Below are positions 3,375-19,190 of a stretch of DNA of 64,000 nucleotides, one piece after another. Every line of letters starts with the position of its first letter. The first letter of the stretch is position 1. The DNA is from a virus: IMG/VR virus record IMGVR_UViG_3300028581_000036, positions 1 through 64,000 of that record. One strand, written 5' to 3'. The notes under the pieces are model-generated. The model worked only from the letters and a program-made list of their open reading frames with translations. It made no database searches and was not told the origin of the DNA. The translations under genes were made by a program, and so were the position numbers.

Positions 3375-3406
3375 TTTGGGTTCTGCAAAATATGGTGTAT
3401 ATTTAC
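3375..3406 (+). promoter_or_regulatory. Class I promoter 7
   Basis: TTTG (3375-3378), 19-base spacer, TATATTTAC (3398-3406), conserved leader to ATG 3432. Confidence 0.85.
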
Positions 3407-3431
3407 ACCGTAATCAATAACAACAGACAAC

Positions 3432-3725
3432 ATGGTAAATCAGATTTTTAACACCGAGAAAATTAATCAAGTAGAAAGTATGAAAACTGAGAAATTATCC
3501 CACGAGAGCGAAAACGGCAATAACGCTAACCGTTTGTTAGGTGTAGTTTATATTGTCAACAGAGTAAATGACGGCGAACATAGTTATACTTCAATTGAAA
3601 TGATTTTTAACTCTAAAGATAAAGCTGAAATACATAAACAAAAACTTGAAGAAAAATATAAGGATTCAATAGGTTTTAAATACAAACATTTCTATTTTGA
3701 AATAGATGAAGAGTATGTTTTTTAA
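3432..3725 (+). CDS. Hypothetical protein, 97 aa, partly encoded by a solitary integron-type cassette
   Basis: Start fixed by the class I leader. Residues about 29-40 (ENGNNANRLLGVVY) resemble the stretch EAGNFANTVLGAVY of the gene at 18122, because in both genes this part is the translated right half of an attC-like site. The C-terminal half (residues 40-97, with EMIFNSKDKAEIHKQKLEEKY) is the likely original cassette gene. Function unknown. The gene appears to be a cassette fused behind a phage promoter and N-terminus. Confidence 0.7.
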   Translation: MVNQIFNTEKINQVESMKTEKLSHESENGNNANRLLGVVYIVNRVNDGEHSYTSIEMIFNSKDKAEIHKQKLEEKYKDSIGFKYKHFYFEIDEEYVF

Positions 3726-3737
3726 ATTACACCTAAC
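3536..3737 (+). mobile_element. Solitary integron-like gene cassette
   Basis: GTTAGGTGTA at 3536-3545 is the exact reverse complement of TACACCTAAC at 3728-3737, which begins just after the stop codon of the enclosed gene. Both ends resemble those of the last cassette of the main array (18175-18184 and 18448-18457), and the about 30 bases after the stop codons (3723-3753, 18443-18473) are also alike. The downstream attC seems incomplete. Confidence 0.6.
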
Positions 3738-3810
3738 TAGTATGTATATTCAAGTTACCTTAACTCATTATCTATTAACTACTTACTAGCCTCAAAAACC
3801 TGGGCCGATA

Positions 3811-3840
3811 AAGCATTCGTTAAGAATGCTTAATTTTTTT
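3811..3840 (+). terminator. Intrinsic terminator
   Basis: Perfect 8-bp stem AAGCATTC/GAATGCTT with a 5-base loop, followed after AA by seven T. It ends the transcript of the gene at 3432. Confidence 0.75.
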
Positions 3841-14507: not shown

Positions 14508-15164
14508 ATGAAACTATTATTAGAAAAAGGTCAACATCTTTGGTTTACAAGCGATACGCATTATAATCATAGCAATATTTGCAGATCAACTACCAAGTGG
14601 GAGAATGCAGAAGATGTAACACGTGACTTTAAGTCACTGGACCACATGAACTCTGTAATCGTTGAATCAATTAATGATGCTGTCGGTGAAAATGATATAC
14701 TAATACATCTTGGTGATTGGTCATTTGGTGGTTTTGAAAAAATAAAAGAGTTTAGAAATAAGATCGTGTGTAAAAATATACATCTTGTCCTAGGCAACCA
14801 CGATCATCATATTGAAAGAAATAAAGATGATGTACGCAGGCTTTTTTCATCCGTACAGCACTATATTAATCTTGATGTCAGAAGGCCGAGTTCTTATAAA
14901 AAGGGTGAAATGGACCAGTATAATTTTATACTAATGCATTTTCCAATTGCCAGCTGGGACGGTATGAACAATAACGCAGTACACTTACATGGCCATGTTC
15001 ATTTACCTGCTGCTAAGAGAATAGCAGCAGGTAAAGCAATGGATGTCGGAGTAGACGGCAATTACATGAAACCTATATCACTAGATGAAGTATTATCTTT
15101 AATGAAAAATAGGCCTATTGTAAAGCTTGCACTGCCTCAAGACCATCATGAGAAAAAATTATAA
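14508..15164 (+). CDS. Calcineurin-like metallophosphoesterase, 218 aa
   Basis: Metal-binding motifs in order: SDTHYNH (15-21), LGDW (68-71), GNHDH (96-100), a His in MHFPIASWD (about 144) and HLHGHVH (about 161). A complete catalytic set. The family cleaves phosphomono- or diesters; with an RNA ligase and cREC protein nearby, a nucleic-acid end-processing role is plausible, but nucleotide hydrolysis cannot be excluded. Driven by its own class II promoter. Confidence 0.85.
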   Translation: MKLLLEKGQHLWFTSDTHYNHSNICRSTTKWENAEDVTRDFKSLDHMNSVIVESINDAVGENDILIHLGDWSFGGFEKIKEFRNKIVCKNIHLVLGNHDHHIERNKDDVRRLFSSVQHYINLDVRRPSSYKKGEMDQYNFILMHFPIASWDGMNNNAVHLHGHVHLPAAKRIAAGKAMDVGVDGNYMKPISLDEVLSLMKNRPIVKLALPQDHHEKKL

Positions 15165-15210
15165 ATTTAGTATAAATGGTTATAGATAGCAAAAAACCCT
15201 CAATGACGCA

Positions 15211-15237
15211 AAACCGCTGTTACCTGCTGGGCGGTTT
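15211..15237 (+). other. Left boundary of the cassette array
   Basis: AAACCGC/GCGGTTT hairpin (15211-15217, 15231-15237) around GTTACCTGC. The core GTTACCTGC (15219-15227) is the left end of cassette 1, being the reverse complement of 15632-15640. No full attC or attI can be recognised upstream of it. Confidence 0.55.
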
Positions 15238-15264
15238 ATCAGTAGGAACTTTAAAAGAAACAAA

Positions 15265-15627
15265 ATGAGTTTAGATGTTTATTTAACACGAAAAAAATGG
15301 ATTAGCTACGATGCTGGCAAAACATTAACAGAAGAAGAAGAAACTGTTTACGATGCAAACATTACCCATAACTTAGGTAAAATGGCACGTGAAGCAGGAA
15401 TTTATGAAGCACTTTGGCGACCAGAAGAAATTGGCAAAACAAAGGCGAGTGAAATAGTTGAATTGCTTGAAAAAGGATTAGCTGATTTAAAAGCAAGACC
15501 TGAACATTTTGAAAAATTCAACTCGCCTAACGTATGGGGAATGTATGAACATTTTGTTCCTTTTGTCGAAAAGTATTTAGAAGCCTGTAAAGAATATCCT
15601 GATGCTATTATCGGAGTGTCAAGGTAG
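15265..15627 (+). CDS. Cassette 1 protein, 120 aa, conserved in phages
   Basis: Begins MSLDVYLTRKKWISYDAGKT. The segment YDANITHNLGKMAREAGIYE (about residues 30-49) is a motif I recognise in phage and bacterial proteins of unknown function. Soluble, helical. The gene starts 45 bases into the cassette and stops 4 bases before its attC. Confidence 0.8.
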   Translation: MSLDVYLTRKKWISYDAGKTLTEEEETVYDANITHNLGKMAREAGIYEALWRPEEIGKTKASEIVELLEKGLADLKARPEHFEKFNSPNVWGMYEHFVPFVEKYLEACKEYPDAIIGVSR

Positions 15628-15631
15628 CCTT

Positions 15632-15728
15632 GCAGGTAACGATTGGGTGTATGAGAAGGTTTGCTTTGATGAATTTTCAAATTACCACTACTGCTGATAG
15701 CAAACTTTCTTATACACCTTGTTATACA
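15632..15728 (+). other. attC site 1
   Basis: R'' GCAGGTAAC (15632-15640); long arms GGTGTATGAGAAGGTTTGC (15646-15664) and GCAAACTTTCTTATACACC (15700-15718) pair with few mismatches; R' GTTATACA (15721-15728). R'' matches the left end of cassette 1 and R' that of cassette 2. Confidence 0.8.
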
Positions 15729-15840
15729 CAGTACGGTTTATTAAGGTAGAATGTTGATTTGAAACACGAATAAAAACTTTTTAAAAATGTGCGGTGGAAA
15801 ATTTAATTCTGAATATTTATATATACAAATAAACTTTAAT

Positions 15841-16179
15841 ATGAAAAAGGAACTTAAACATTTGAAAACATTTGAACAGAACACAGATAAAAACTTGAAT
15901 ATATCTGGTGTTATACAACGGAATTTGTTATTATCAAAATCTGATATTGAATACTTACGAAGTGTCGGATTTACACAAGATAATTCAAAAAATTCTGGTC
16001 TTTATTATTATGAAGATGATAATAAAACTAAGGTAATTGTACCACAAGAAGATGGTACATATAAATTAGAATTTTATGAATGGTGTGATGATGGTGATGG
16101 TAATTATTACGAAGATTTTGATAAGGAATATAGTAAAAAAGGACAAACATTACAACAATTTATAGAAGATTGGATTTAA
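15841..16179 (+). CDS. Cassette 2 protein, 112 aa
   Basis: Unrecognised acidic protein; the C-terminal part is rich in Asp, Glu and Tyr (EWCDDGDGNYYEDFDKEY) and the centre carries SDIEYLRSVGF. N-terminus MKKELKHLKTFEQ vaguely resembles the capsid-targeting motif but lacks (L/I)xE. An in-frame ATG at 15787, nearer the cassette end, would add 18 residues and cannot be excluded. Confidence 0.65.
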   Translation: MKKELKHLKTFEQNTDKNLNISGVIQRNLLLSKSDIEYLRSVGFTQDNSKNSGLYYYEDDNKTKVIVPQEDGTYKLEFYEWCDDGDGNYYEDFDKEYSKKGQTLQQFIEDWI

Positions 16180-16185
16180 TTATGT

Positions 16186-16281
16186 TGTATAACGGTTGCA
16201 AATATATGTAGGTTTTTTGTAACAAATGCTTAAAATTTACGTATAACTTAATAAAAACTTACATATATTTGTTGTTATGTG
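16186..16281 (+). other. attC site 2
   Basis: R'' TGTATAAC (16186-16193); arms GCAAATATATGTAGG (16198-16212) and CTTACATATATTTG (16258-16271) pair; R' GTTATGTGT begins at 16274. R'' matches the left end of cassette 2 (15721). Confidence 0.8.
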
Positions 16282-16335
16282 TATGTATTTTAATTTTTTG
16301 TGCGTGGGAAATATTAACTTAAAAATAGAAATAAA

Positions 16336-16545
16336 ATGGAAAAATTTATTGAAGTAAACGGAAACTGGTTGTTTAGTGATGAACATTTTTTATTGACTGA
16401 ACGAGGTTGGCTAAAGGCAAAAGAACTACAAAATGGTGATAAAGTTATTGGGGTGAAAGGAGAATCGACAATAAAAAATATTATAGAATGTGGAGAACGA
16501 CCAGATGCACCGATTATTGGTGAAACAGGTGCGGTGGGAAATTAA
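16336..16545 (+). CDS. Cassette 3 protein: Hint/intein-like fragment, 69 aa
   Basis: HFLLTERGWLKAKELQNGDK (residues about 19-38) has the shape of the His-containing region of Hint domains (H-x-F/L-T...GW-x-x-A-x-x-L-x-x-GD). The N-terminal Cys-containing block and C-terminal His-Asn of an active intein are missing, so self-splicing is unlikely. It may be a regulatory stand-alone Hint fold or a relic. Confidence 0.6.
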   Translation: MEKFIEVNGNWLFSDEHFLLTERGWLKAKELQNGDKVIGVKGESTIKNIIECGERPDAPIIGETGAVGN

Positions 16546-16551
16546 AATATT

Positions 16552-16685
16552 ACACATAACGTGTTTGCGCTTGGCGCAGTGGTGGACTTCGGAGTGAAAA
16601 ACTTTCAAGTTACCACCAAAGCCGATGCAAGGCACGATGTTGAATTAACCACTAAACCCGCCATTGAGCCAAACGCATGTTAGGC
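16552..16685 (+). other. attC site 3
   Basis: R'' ACACATAAC (16552-16560), L'' TTTGCGCTTGGC (16564-16575), L' GAGCCAAACGCA (16666-16677), R' GTTAGGC (16679-16685), with the textbook GTTRRRY. A further internal hairpin (GTGGTGGACTT / AAGTTACCAC) fills the centre. It is the most classical attC of the array. Confidence 0.85.
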
Positions 16686-16751
16686 GATGGCACGGTTAAA
16701 TTAGTAGAAACTTAAAAACCTTGTGGTGTAAAGGCGAACCGCATATATAAA

Positions 16752-17360
16752 ATGACAAATACACAAAAATTTGCAAAGCAAGAGTTGGATATTCTTGCAG
16801 CAACAGTTCCAGATGCGATTGTAACACCATTCGCTAAAGAAATCTTAGCTTTATGTGAAGCATTTGGTAAATCAGGACAAAGTGGTGGTTCAGCACCATA
16901 CACAGCATCAGCCATTGCACAATCGGTAAAAAAATTGTGCTTACAAGAGCCTATTTGTGATGTAACAGGACACGATAATGAGTGGGTTGATGTTGCCGAG
17001 TGGATGGGTGAACCAATGTATCAAAATGCAAGATGTGGCGGATTGTTTAAATACCAAAACGGGAAATGTAGCTATAATGATGCTATTGTTTGGAAAGGAG
17101 AAGAAGAACACGACACATTCACAGGCAGAGTTTACATTGACGATAAGGATTTTGAACTGATTGGAAGTAGCCAATATGCAAGATTTCCATTTAAACCAAA
17201 AACATTTTATATTGACGTGGTTCGTGTTCCGATTACAAAAGATGATGCGGAAAAAAGAGGGATGCATTACATTGAGGATGGTTTTGGAGAATGTTACTAC
17301 ACGGTATTGAAAGACCCTAAACAACTTGAAAAGGTTTTTAAATACTATGACAAAAAGTAA
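16752..17360 (+). CDS. Cassette 4 protein, 202 aa, conserved phage protein
   Basis: Contains LCLQEPICDVTGHDNEWVDV (residues about 57-76), GEPMYQNARCGGLFKY and VWKGEEEHDTFTGRVY, blocks I recognise from uncharacterised phage proteins. Four Cys residues lie in the middle part and could bind metal. Presence of a typical phage gene inside a cassette suggests that the array gathers phage genes. Confidence 0.75.
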   Translation: MTNTQKFAKQELDILAATVPDAIVTPFAKEILALCEAFGKSGQSGGSAPYTASAIAQSVKKLCLQEPICDVTGHDNEWVDVAEWMGEPMYQNARCGGLFKYQNGKCSYNDAIVWKGEEEHDTFTGRVYIDDKDFELIGSSQYARFPFKPKTFYIDVVRVPITKDDAEKRGMHYIEDGFGECYYTVLKDPKQLEKVFKYYDKK

Positions 17361-17403
17361 TTTAACGGGCAGGCACTATCGGATTAGCAGTTCGGTAGTG
17401 CTT

Positions 17404-17431
17404 TCGCCTAACGGTCGCAGGTATATTTAGT
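17404..17431 (+). other. attC site 4, apparently truncated
   Basis: R'' TCGCCTAAC (17404-17412) matches the left end of cassette 4 (16679-16687) perfectly, but no GTTRRRY follows before the next gene; only GATTAAAT is present. A second inverted pair, GCAGGCACTA (17369-17378) and TTTAGTGCCTG (17426-17436), overlaps. Probably damaged by deletion, which fused cassettes 4 and 5. Confidence 0.55.
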
Positions 17432-17471
17432 GCCTGATTAAATAGTAGAAACTTTCAAAATAGTAGAGAAT

Positions 17472-17762
17472 ATGAAAAATAAACAAATGTTAAAAACTGC
17501 GCAGAAACAGGCATTAAATATACCTGTTGTTATAGGTAGTGCTTTTGTTTCAATTTTTGATAGATTCGGGGTTACTTGTTACAATGAACACGACACTATT
17601 GACGATGCGATTAAATCATTAGAATACGGAAGTGATGAAGGTTTAATTATGGATATTGCTGTGATTGAAACAAAGACTAAACAAATGGTATGGTATCAAA
17701 AGTTTTTAGGTAAACATGAATGTAAAGCAAAGGTAGATATGTTTGTTCAGCATTACCTATAA
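17472..17762 (+). CDS. Cassette 5 protein, 96 aa
   Basis: Begins MKNKQMLKTAQKQALNIPVV; alpha/beta protein without a recognised family. Its stop codon TAA is part of the R'' site CCTATAAC of attC 5, a compact arrangement often seen in cassettes. Confidence 0.7.
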   Translation: MKNKQMLKTAQKQALNIPVVIGSAFVSIFDRFGVTCYNEHDTIDDAIKSLEYGSDEGLIMDIAVIETKTKQMVWYQKFLGKHECKAKVDMFVQHYL

Positions 17763-17849
17763 CGTCTGGCAATATATGTAGTTGCCATGTAGAAACTTAA
17801 CAAATTAGTATAAACCTTAATGGGCAATTACATATATTGCTTGTTAGCA
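17756..17849 (+). other. attC site 5
   Basis: R'' CCTATAAC (17756-17763); arms GGCAATATATGTAGTTGCC (17768-17786) and GGGCAATTACATATATTGC (17822-17840); R' GTTAGCA (17843-17849). The left end that should pair with R'' (cassette 5) is missing because attC 4 is truncated. Confidence 0.8.
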
Positions 17850-17861
17850 AACGTAATTATT

Positions 17862-18056
17862 ATGGCAAAAAGTTTAGAAAAAGAACCAATGATTATACCA
17901 AACGAATATGATGGATTATGGTCGGCATATTATGTTGAAATTATATTCCACAACGGGAATAAATCACATCCAATTAAATTAGATGAAGGTGTTCGTGGGA
18001 TAAACTGCAAATGTAAGGTAACTGTTGATGAGGATGGTTGGCTTTATGTTTGCTAA
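17862..18056 (+). CDS. Cassette 6 protein, 64 aa
   Basis: Begins MAKSLEKEPMIIPNEYDG and ends CKVTVDEDGWLYVC; beta-rich, no family recognised. The ATG at 17862 was chosen since upstream in-frame starts lie inside attC 5. The stop codon is part of the R'' site of attC 6. Confidence 0.65.
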   Translation: MAKSLEKEPMIIPNEYDGLWSAYYVEIIFHNGNKSHPIKLDEGVRGINCKCKVTVDEDGWLYVC

Positions 18057-18181
18057 CGGAAAAGTATTGGCGATGTTGCCAATTTGAAAAACAAATGTTC
18101 AAAATTTAAACAAAAGTTGATATGAAAATTGAAGTTAAAATAACCGATGAAGCTGGCAATTTTGCCAATACCGTGTTAGGT
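18048..18181 (+). other. attC site 6, read through by the next gene
   Basis: R'' GTTTGCTAAC (18048-18057) is the exact reverse complement of the cassette 6 left end GTTAGCAAAC (17843-17852). Arms GTATTGGCGATGTTGCC (18067-18083) and GGCAATTTTGCCAATACC (18155-18172); R' GTTAGGT (18175-18181). Confidence 0.75.
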
Positions 18182-18445
18182 GCAGTTTATTTTTTCCCAA
18201 ATTATATGATAGAACACATAATTGAACTATCACAAGAATATAAAGAAATTGTTTCATTATCAGATATTGAAAAGTTTAAAAGCATTGCAACCGCTTACGA
18301 TGAAACTTATATTAGCCAATTGATTTCAAACTGCGTCAATTGGACAATGAAAAAAGATTGGGATGATAAATACTACCAAAAATTAAAAAGAGATGAAATT
18401 AAAACACTTGAAAGAGTAAAGTATCGGGTCAAACGTGGTCGCTAA
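18122..18445 (+). CDS. Cassette 7 protein, 107 aa, with an N-terminus encoded by attC
   Basis: The open frame starts inside attC 6, so residues 1-18 come from the recombination site. An internal ATG at 18206 gives a 79-residue protein that lies wholly in cassette 7 and may be the original gene. Helical, charged (WTMKKDWDDKYYQKLKRDE), no family recognised. The same arrangement is found in the gene at 3432. Confidence 0.65.
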   Translation: MKIEVKITDEAGNFANTVLGAVYFFPNYMIEHIIELSQEYKEIVSLSDIEKFKSIATAYDETYISQLISNCVNWTMKKDWDDKYYQKLKRDEIKTLERVKYRVKRGR

Positions 18446-18509
18446 ATTGCACCTAACTATTATATATAAACAACTCTATGCAACTGACTGATTATTAATA
18501 CTTTATAAC
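18446..18509 (+). other. Right end of the array
   Basis: TGCACCTAAC (18448-18457) pairs with the left end of cassette 7 (18175-18184), closing the array. No L' or R' half follows, so the last attC is incomplete. The first 30 bases resemble 3723-3753. Confidence 0.55.
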
Positions 18510-18700
18510 ATGAAAAAGACTGACTATTACAAAATCTGTGAACAAAAATTGAAGAACTTCAAACTGCAGCAGGCCATGAACCGCTTATGAGTGTTATCCC
18601 GACTAAGAATAGGTATCACCTGATTACTAGGCCTTTTAATATTAAACTATTAGAGCCATTGATGTACAGTGGGGCCGTTGTTCGATATTCACAAGGATAA
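18510..18700 (+). pseudogene. Small phage gene with a frameshift in an A-run
   Basis: The first frame (from ATG 18510) reads MKKTDYYKICEQK and meets TGA at 18588. The -1 frame from about 18548 continues as IEELQTAAGHEPLMSVI and ends RYSQG-TAA at 18700, clearly protein-like. One extra A in the five-A run (18544-18548) would join both. Mutation, sequencing error or programmed slippage are possible. Confidence 0.55.
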
Positions 18701-18773: not shown

Positions 18774-19190
18774 ATGACAGACAATAAAATTAAAATTTAT
18801 TTAGACGACGTTAGAACCCCGGTTGAAAAGAATTGGGTTGTCGTAAGAAGCTATGATGAGTTCATAGCCAAAGTAAATGAAATTGGTTTAGAAAATATCG
18901 ATTTTATTTCATTAGACCATGATCTAGGCGACTCAGCAATGAAGGAATGGCATAAAAATGTGTATCACAACTATACATTAGACTACAACAGCATTACTGA
19001 GAAAACAGGCTATGATTGTGCTAAATGGTTGGTTGAACAGTGGATGGAAGGACAATCTGTTGTTGATGTGTACACCCATTCAGCAAATGCTATTGGCAGT
19101 GCAAACATCATGGGCTACATCAACAATTTCAGACACATAAATCACTTACCGCAAAATTGTGTTAGAGTACAAATAGAACACACGGTATAA
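18774..19190 (+). CDS. cREC-type receiver domain protein (cyclic-phosphate processing), 138 aa
   Basis: Motifs IYLDDVRTP (8-16), FISLDHDLG (about 44-52), TGYDCAKWLVE (about 78-88) and HSANAIGSANIMGYI are those of the receiver-like cREC domain linked to processing of RNA cyclic-phosphate ends. 138 aa is a single-domain size. It lies 160 bases upstream of an RNA ligase gene, which supports a role in RNA repair during infection (inference). Confidence 0.8.
   Translation: MTDNKIKIYLDDVRTPVEKNWVVVRSYDEFIAKVNEIGLENIDFISLDHDLGDSAMKEWHKNVYHNYTLDYNSITEKTGYDCAKWLVEQWMEGQSVVDVYTHSANAIGSANIMGYINNFRHINHLPQNCVRVQIEHTV

Follow-up and report, generated by a model that had tools for sequence, protein, structure and literature searches.

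Positions 3480-3790 of the phage studied here are, on comparative sequence evidence, very probably a relic in which one gene cassette lies at a second attI-like site behind a phage promoter, with its attC halved and the adjoining recombinase gene deleted. The window, i.e., the whole stretch of 64,000 nucleotides that was analyzed, is part of a 71-kb virus record (IMGVR_UViG_3300028581_000036, here G000, the phage under study), and IMG/VR records may be fragments. Legible at the locus are the cassette ends, half of an attC and an attI-like tail; a recombinase gene stands beside that tail in other phages and none stands here. On the plus strand, a phage promoter with its leader would come first, followed by an attC 3' half, the cassette gene, its R'' end and an attI-like sequence from which the recombinase has gone (Table 1).

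Table 1. Features of the solitary locus and of the main cassette array, in window positions.
Feature	Position	Strand	Support
Phage promoter/leader motif ahead of the gene	3398..3416	+	Exact 19-mer; nine copies in the window against 0.06 expected
97-aa ORF with start codon from the phage leader, N-terminus encoded by attC and DUF7336-like cassette gene thereafter	3432..3725	+	
Probable 3' half of attC, with in-attC ATG (3480) 56 nt before R'	3480..3535	+	PWM, ATG spacing
R' end of the solitary cassette, GTTAGGTGTAGTTTA	3536..3550	+	15/15 pairing with 3723-3737
R'' end of the solitary cassette, TAAATTACACCTAAC	3723..3737	+	Pairing with 3536..3550
Putative attI-like sequence/leader of a lost recombinase gene	3738..3790	+	In-register identity to other leaders
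Terminator-like hairpin and T run closing the relic region	3808..3840	+	Inverted repeat I21, then TTTTTTT
Main array: seven cassettes, six complete attC	15219..18457	+	Arm scores 13.6-18.9 vs random maximum 11.6
Cassette 7, attI-proximal	18175..18457	+	Ends same as those of the solitary cassette
attI-like sequence/recombinase leader of the main array	18458..18509	+	38/50 identity to L133, 0/978 background sites
26-codon ORF, probable truncated recombinase N-terminus	18510..18590	+	Start codon 52 nt beyond R'', like L132 and L135

Ends of the solitary cassette

The perfect complementarity of GTTAGGTGTA (3536-3545) and TACACCTAAC (3728-3737), on which the preliminary description was built, is present. 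The extended arms pair at all 15 positions (14 Watson-Crick pairs and one G.T), and within the window such 15/15 pairs are formed only by the solitary unit and by cassette 7 of the main array, with 0.017 expected. A pattern scan for the left end revealed independent cassettes that carry the same ends, GTTAGGTGYAGTTTAT...RCACCTAAC, and are flanked on either side by a complete attC (L060/L074/L109, L068, and L079), and for this reason the ends of the solitary unit are considered genuine cassette ends. Across nine arrays, including that at 15219-18457, 37/37 cassettes have A as base 11 of the reversed right arm and 29/37 have G at that position of the left arm, and the solitary cassette conforms to both preferences. 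Pairing of cassette ends thus extends beyond the R boxes, with base 11 pairing as G.T in the top strand but being mismatched as C/A in the bottom strand; this asymmetry could act as a strand mark, like extrahelical bases.

The solitary unit has the complementary GTTRRRY/RYYYAAC ends around one gene that define an integron gene cassette, but not the one complete attC per cassette that is found in cassettes 1-6 of the main array. Likewise, the main array is a CALIN (at least one complete attC, no integrase), which the solitary locus, having a half attC only, is not. Given that no complete attC remains, excision of the solitary cassette in its present state is unlikely.

Left flank and cassette gene

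The leader motif TATATTTACACCGTAATCA, of which seven of the nine copies in the window are exact, stands in exact form in front of the gene, and no copy occurs near the main array at 15-18 kb. The promoters of the window are of a type that we take to be associated with Bacteroidota. That a class I promoter and leader now drive the cassette had been proposed earlier; the position of the motif is as claimed, and from there it would drive expression of the gene. Between motif and cassette, the last 26 nt before R' score 15.1 against a PWM built from 14 attC 3' halves, a value that none of 401 background sites attains and that lies above every leave-one-out true site. A complete attC of G400 has the exact 10-base run GCAATAACGC at the corresponding positions of the register. 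The 5' half, i.e., the partner arm, is missing to the left of the cassette, and because positions 3432-3479 are unlike known attC middles, the left junction can be placed only between 3432 and about 3490.

The ORF begins upstream of the cassette, whose boundary falls at codon 35, and the cassette gene is fused in frame to the phage leader ATG at 3432. DUF7336 (PF24024) matches residues 39-93 (E 7.7e-4, 19.7 bits, below the curated cut-off of 25 bits), so that the conserved domain begins at the cassette start; in the two strong DUF7336 members that were found it begins at residue 2-4, which suggests that the first ~35 residues are an addition. A translation start upstream of the cassette had been noted, and the ORF does begin at 3432, but this is not peculiar to the locus: some attC sites of the array hold start codons 53 and 57 nt before R', similar to the 56 nt seen here, and an upstream start is therefore a trait of such cassettes elsewhere too. 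Relatives of the protein were found neither in viral contigs nor in phages, and 395 sampled genomes gave weak matches only. Its predicted structure (beta-beta-alpha-beta, pLDDT 78) has no significant match in the PDB.

The attI-like tail and the main array

The solitary cassette does appear to lie at a second site, though not at a neutral site of the phage. Its left flank is half an attC including the ATG at 3480 and not clean phage sequence, and the site itself, on the right from 3738 to about 3790, matches a conserved attI-like sequence with a recombinase leader. Compared in register, the solitary tail is identical to leaders in L129, L132, and L139 at up to 30/50 positions (0/978 background sites), and matches the tail of cassette 7 at 28/50 positions over the 50 nt after the stem (0/979 background sites). 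This similarity had looked like noise in an anchor-free genome scan, a result reversed by the in-register test, and among the tails of the set the solitary one has diverged furthest. The pattern YYAACTAKTATRTATANNCMAS, made from three tails, retrieved 14 viral stretches, all of which except L130 either lie where a cassette or an array ends on the right or match the leaders named above. The R'' sequences beside them are of many kinds, which argues that the tail belongs to the site and not to one cassette. In other phage records the conserved tail abuts the last cassette of arrays, often with an intact or broken tyrosine-recombinase gene 36-52 nt further on. The arrays in L129, L131, L132, L133, L134, L135, L136, L139, and L126 end at the same attI-like site, which in most of them is directly followed by an intact or broken tyrosine recombinase. 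At the solitary locus no recombinase coding remnant was found. By position and conservation the tail is attI-like and may correspond to the attI that adjoins the first cassette of a complete integron, and from these sequence matches it is best read as the attI-like site and recombinase leader of a second, decayed locus.

Other identities of the right flank were examined and rejected. A scan of all end points found no arms of a second attC half to the right of the cassette, the tail does not score above background as an attC 5' half, and no convincing match supported a phage intergenic repeat or a late promoter. The known phage CALIN of Polaribacter phage P12002L is without the tail.

The reported resemblance to cassette 7 is confirmed at both ends, since the left flanks also agree at 14/30 positions, a value that 0.7% of background sites reach, in addition to the agreement after the stem. 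The proposed relation to this last array cassette holds for position and ends and fails for the gene, which is not homologous, the bodies aligning poorly; a simple duplication of cassette 7 is therefore insufficient. An attC finder returned exactly the six complete attC of the main array when run over the window, and in the 123-kb relative G003 it detected none, and no attC arm was found after the R'' of cassette 7. In the 26-codon ORF that follows the main array's tail, KICEQK resembles KICEEK of L136, the ORF being too short for a significant tblastn match.

Cassette 1 is preceded (15165-15219) by an attC 3' half without a 5' half (score 17.0, 0/401), and hence the far end of the array appears to be cut inside an attC too. 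The possibility that the whole array runs in reverse, with a complete attC at its far end, was rejected, as cassette 1 is also without a partner arm. The genes flanking the array (14508-15164 and 18774-19190) are direct neighbors in G003 at 117-118 kb, where their order is swapped and no array is present. Cassette 4 (16752-17360) encodes a Tad3-family protein, an inhibitor of type I Thoeris (PF25185, E 3.6e-23), and thus represents an anti-defence gene carried as a phage-borne cassette. Another Tad3 cassette, 47% identical, lies beside a terminase-like gene in L011, and a Tad3 copy in L010 is 70% identical, with no attC detected nearby.

Recombinases and comparison with known systems

A tyrosine-recombinase domain is encoded just downstream of the tail in G405, G406, G409, G410, G411, and G413, the start codon lying 36-52 nt after R''; G405/G406 and G411/G413 are near-duplicate records. 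The gene is frameshifted in G411/G413. G407 has a truncated recombinase next to its array and, at another place, a full-length copy, the latter preceded by ...TTATAAC joined to TATTATATATA. G405 carries two arrays, and at the second (L139) only the N-terminus of the recombinase remains. In G000 no tyrosine recombinase was detected (no PF00589 match), and the integron integrase gene (TIGR02249) that stands beside attI in a complete integron is accordingly lacking.

CALINs occur in phages, and recognition of phage CALINs by IntI1 is known (Qi et al. 2023, PMC9892861). The present system resembles integrons, with their intI, attI and attC cassettes, in its single-gene units with GTTRRRY/RYYYAAC ends, its folded attC sites and its one conserved site beside a tyrosine-recombinase gene, and it resembles the phage CALINs in being carried by phages (PMC9892861). 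It differs from integrons in the direction of its genes: 36/37 cassette genes of the parent system point toward the attI-like site, where canonical cassettes read away from attI, and the array would consequently be read from its far side toward the recombinase, which itself reads away from the attI-like site after the array. The parent recombinase also lacks the integrase-specific segment, having 30 residues where IntI4 has 78, and matches TIGR02249 in two stretches with 147.8 bits (cut-off 265). The solitary locus departs further from integrons in having neither a complete attC nor a recombinase.

The 'reverse' integrons of Treponema transcribe intI in the direction of attI, whereas their cassettes are transcribed away from attI (PMC3607928). 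As in those integrons, recombinase and cassette genes share one reading direction; unlike them, the parent system has cassettes that run toward its attI-like site and a recombinase that points away from this site. The recombinase of G410 is matched nearly over its full length, in one stretch, by XerA/XerC-type recombinases (4a8e, 5hxy; NF040815). In the open literature, with preprints and subscription papers lying outside this scope, the combination of toward-site gene direction and a recombinase without the integrase-specific segment was not found described. We know of no description of XerA/XerC-type recombinases as partners of cassette arrays. These comparisons of sequence point to a little-documented integron-like cassette system common to many phages.

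Origin of the locus

The view that the cassette was captured at a second site is largely upheld by its cassette-derived body and main-array-like flanks, and we infer the capture reaction itself, the order of the deletions, expression and the action of a recombinase on these sites. A copy of the attI-like site would have lain at 3.4 kb, comparable to G405 as another record with two arrays. Through a recombinase acting on this site, a circular cassette would have been linked to it by the R'' end, presumably at AA^C / G^TT, the point at which the recombinase would join cassettes to the attI-like site. A deletion would then have removed the recombinase gene, and another would have cut the cassette's own attC within its variable middle and placed what was left behind the phage promoter and leader. 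Fixed in this way, the cassette would have become a gene of the phage, with translation starting at 3432 or at the in-attC ATG (3480). Close relatives that could show an empty site were sought by DNA, leader pattern, upstream gene and RecA-like gene, and none was found; nor did any relative show the second locus intact. In the only relative that has the region (L009/G003), other genes occupy it and attC is absent; the G398 record belongs to the same phage and does not extend over the locus.

It is possible, though we consider it rather doubtful, that the locus is a fragment copied from an array, e.g., from the attI side of the main array or of an array since lost, and that illegitimate or homologous recombination brought it here from elsewhere in the phage without capture at this place. 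Cassette 7 and the solitary cassette do share left flank, ends and tail, and leader and recombinase are partially duplicated in G405 and G407; however, the gene bodies of the two cassettes differ, and the solitary tail matches the leaders of other phages about as well as it matches the tail of cassette 7. Use of some random secondary phage site by a host IntI, inserting a conventional integron cassette, would explain the cassette-type ends and the lack of a recombinase in the phage, and CALINs recognised by IntI1 are known from phages (PMC9892861). We nevertheless hold it to be improbable, since the right flank is a conserved attI-like sequence and not a random one, and an intact insertion would bring a full attC, which neither side has. 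Hardly credible, finally, is the view that the gene is an ordinary one of the phage and its inverted repeat a product of chance. Plain 10-bp pairs starting with GTT do arise by chance (2.1 expected per window, eight found), but four largely independent tests contradict such an origin, namely the 15/15 pairing (0.017 expected), the attC half (0/401), the tail (0/978), and the cassettes with the same ends elsewhere. A cassette relic at a second attI-like site thus accounts best for the locus.

Implications

About even odds may be given to the broader proposition that phages carry their own integron-like branch, with a Xer-type recombinase that has no integron-specific segment, with an attI-like site located at the recombinase leader and with attC arrays whose genes read toward that site, of which the solitary cassette and the main array would be two decayed copies. 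A viral and Xer-like origin of integrons has been proposed (PMC4792948), and if such a phage branch exists, the system could resemble a precursor of integrons. Should its recombinase handle folded attC sites without the domain thought necessary, the question of integron origin would become directly testable. The tail signature AACTATTATATATANNCAAS can be used to find phage cassette arrays together with their recombinase. For the phage itself, the locus illustrates how a mobile cassette can be made a fixed gene under a phage promoter.
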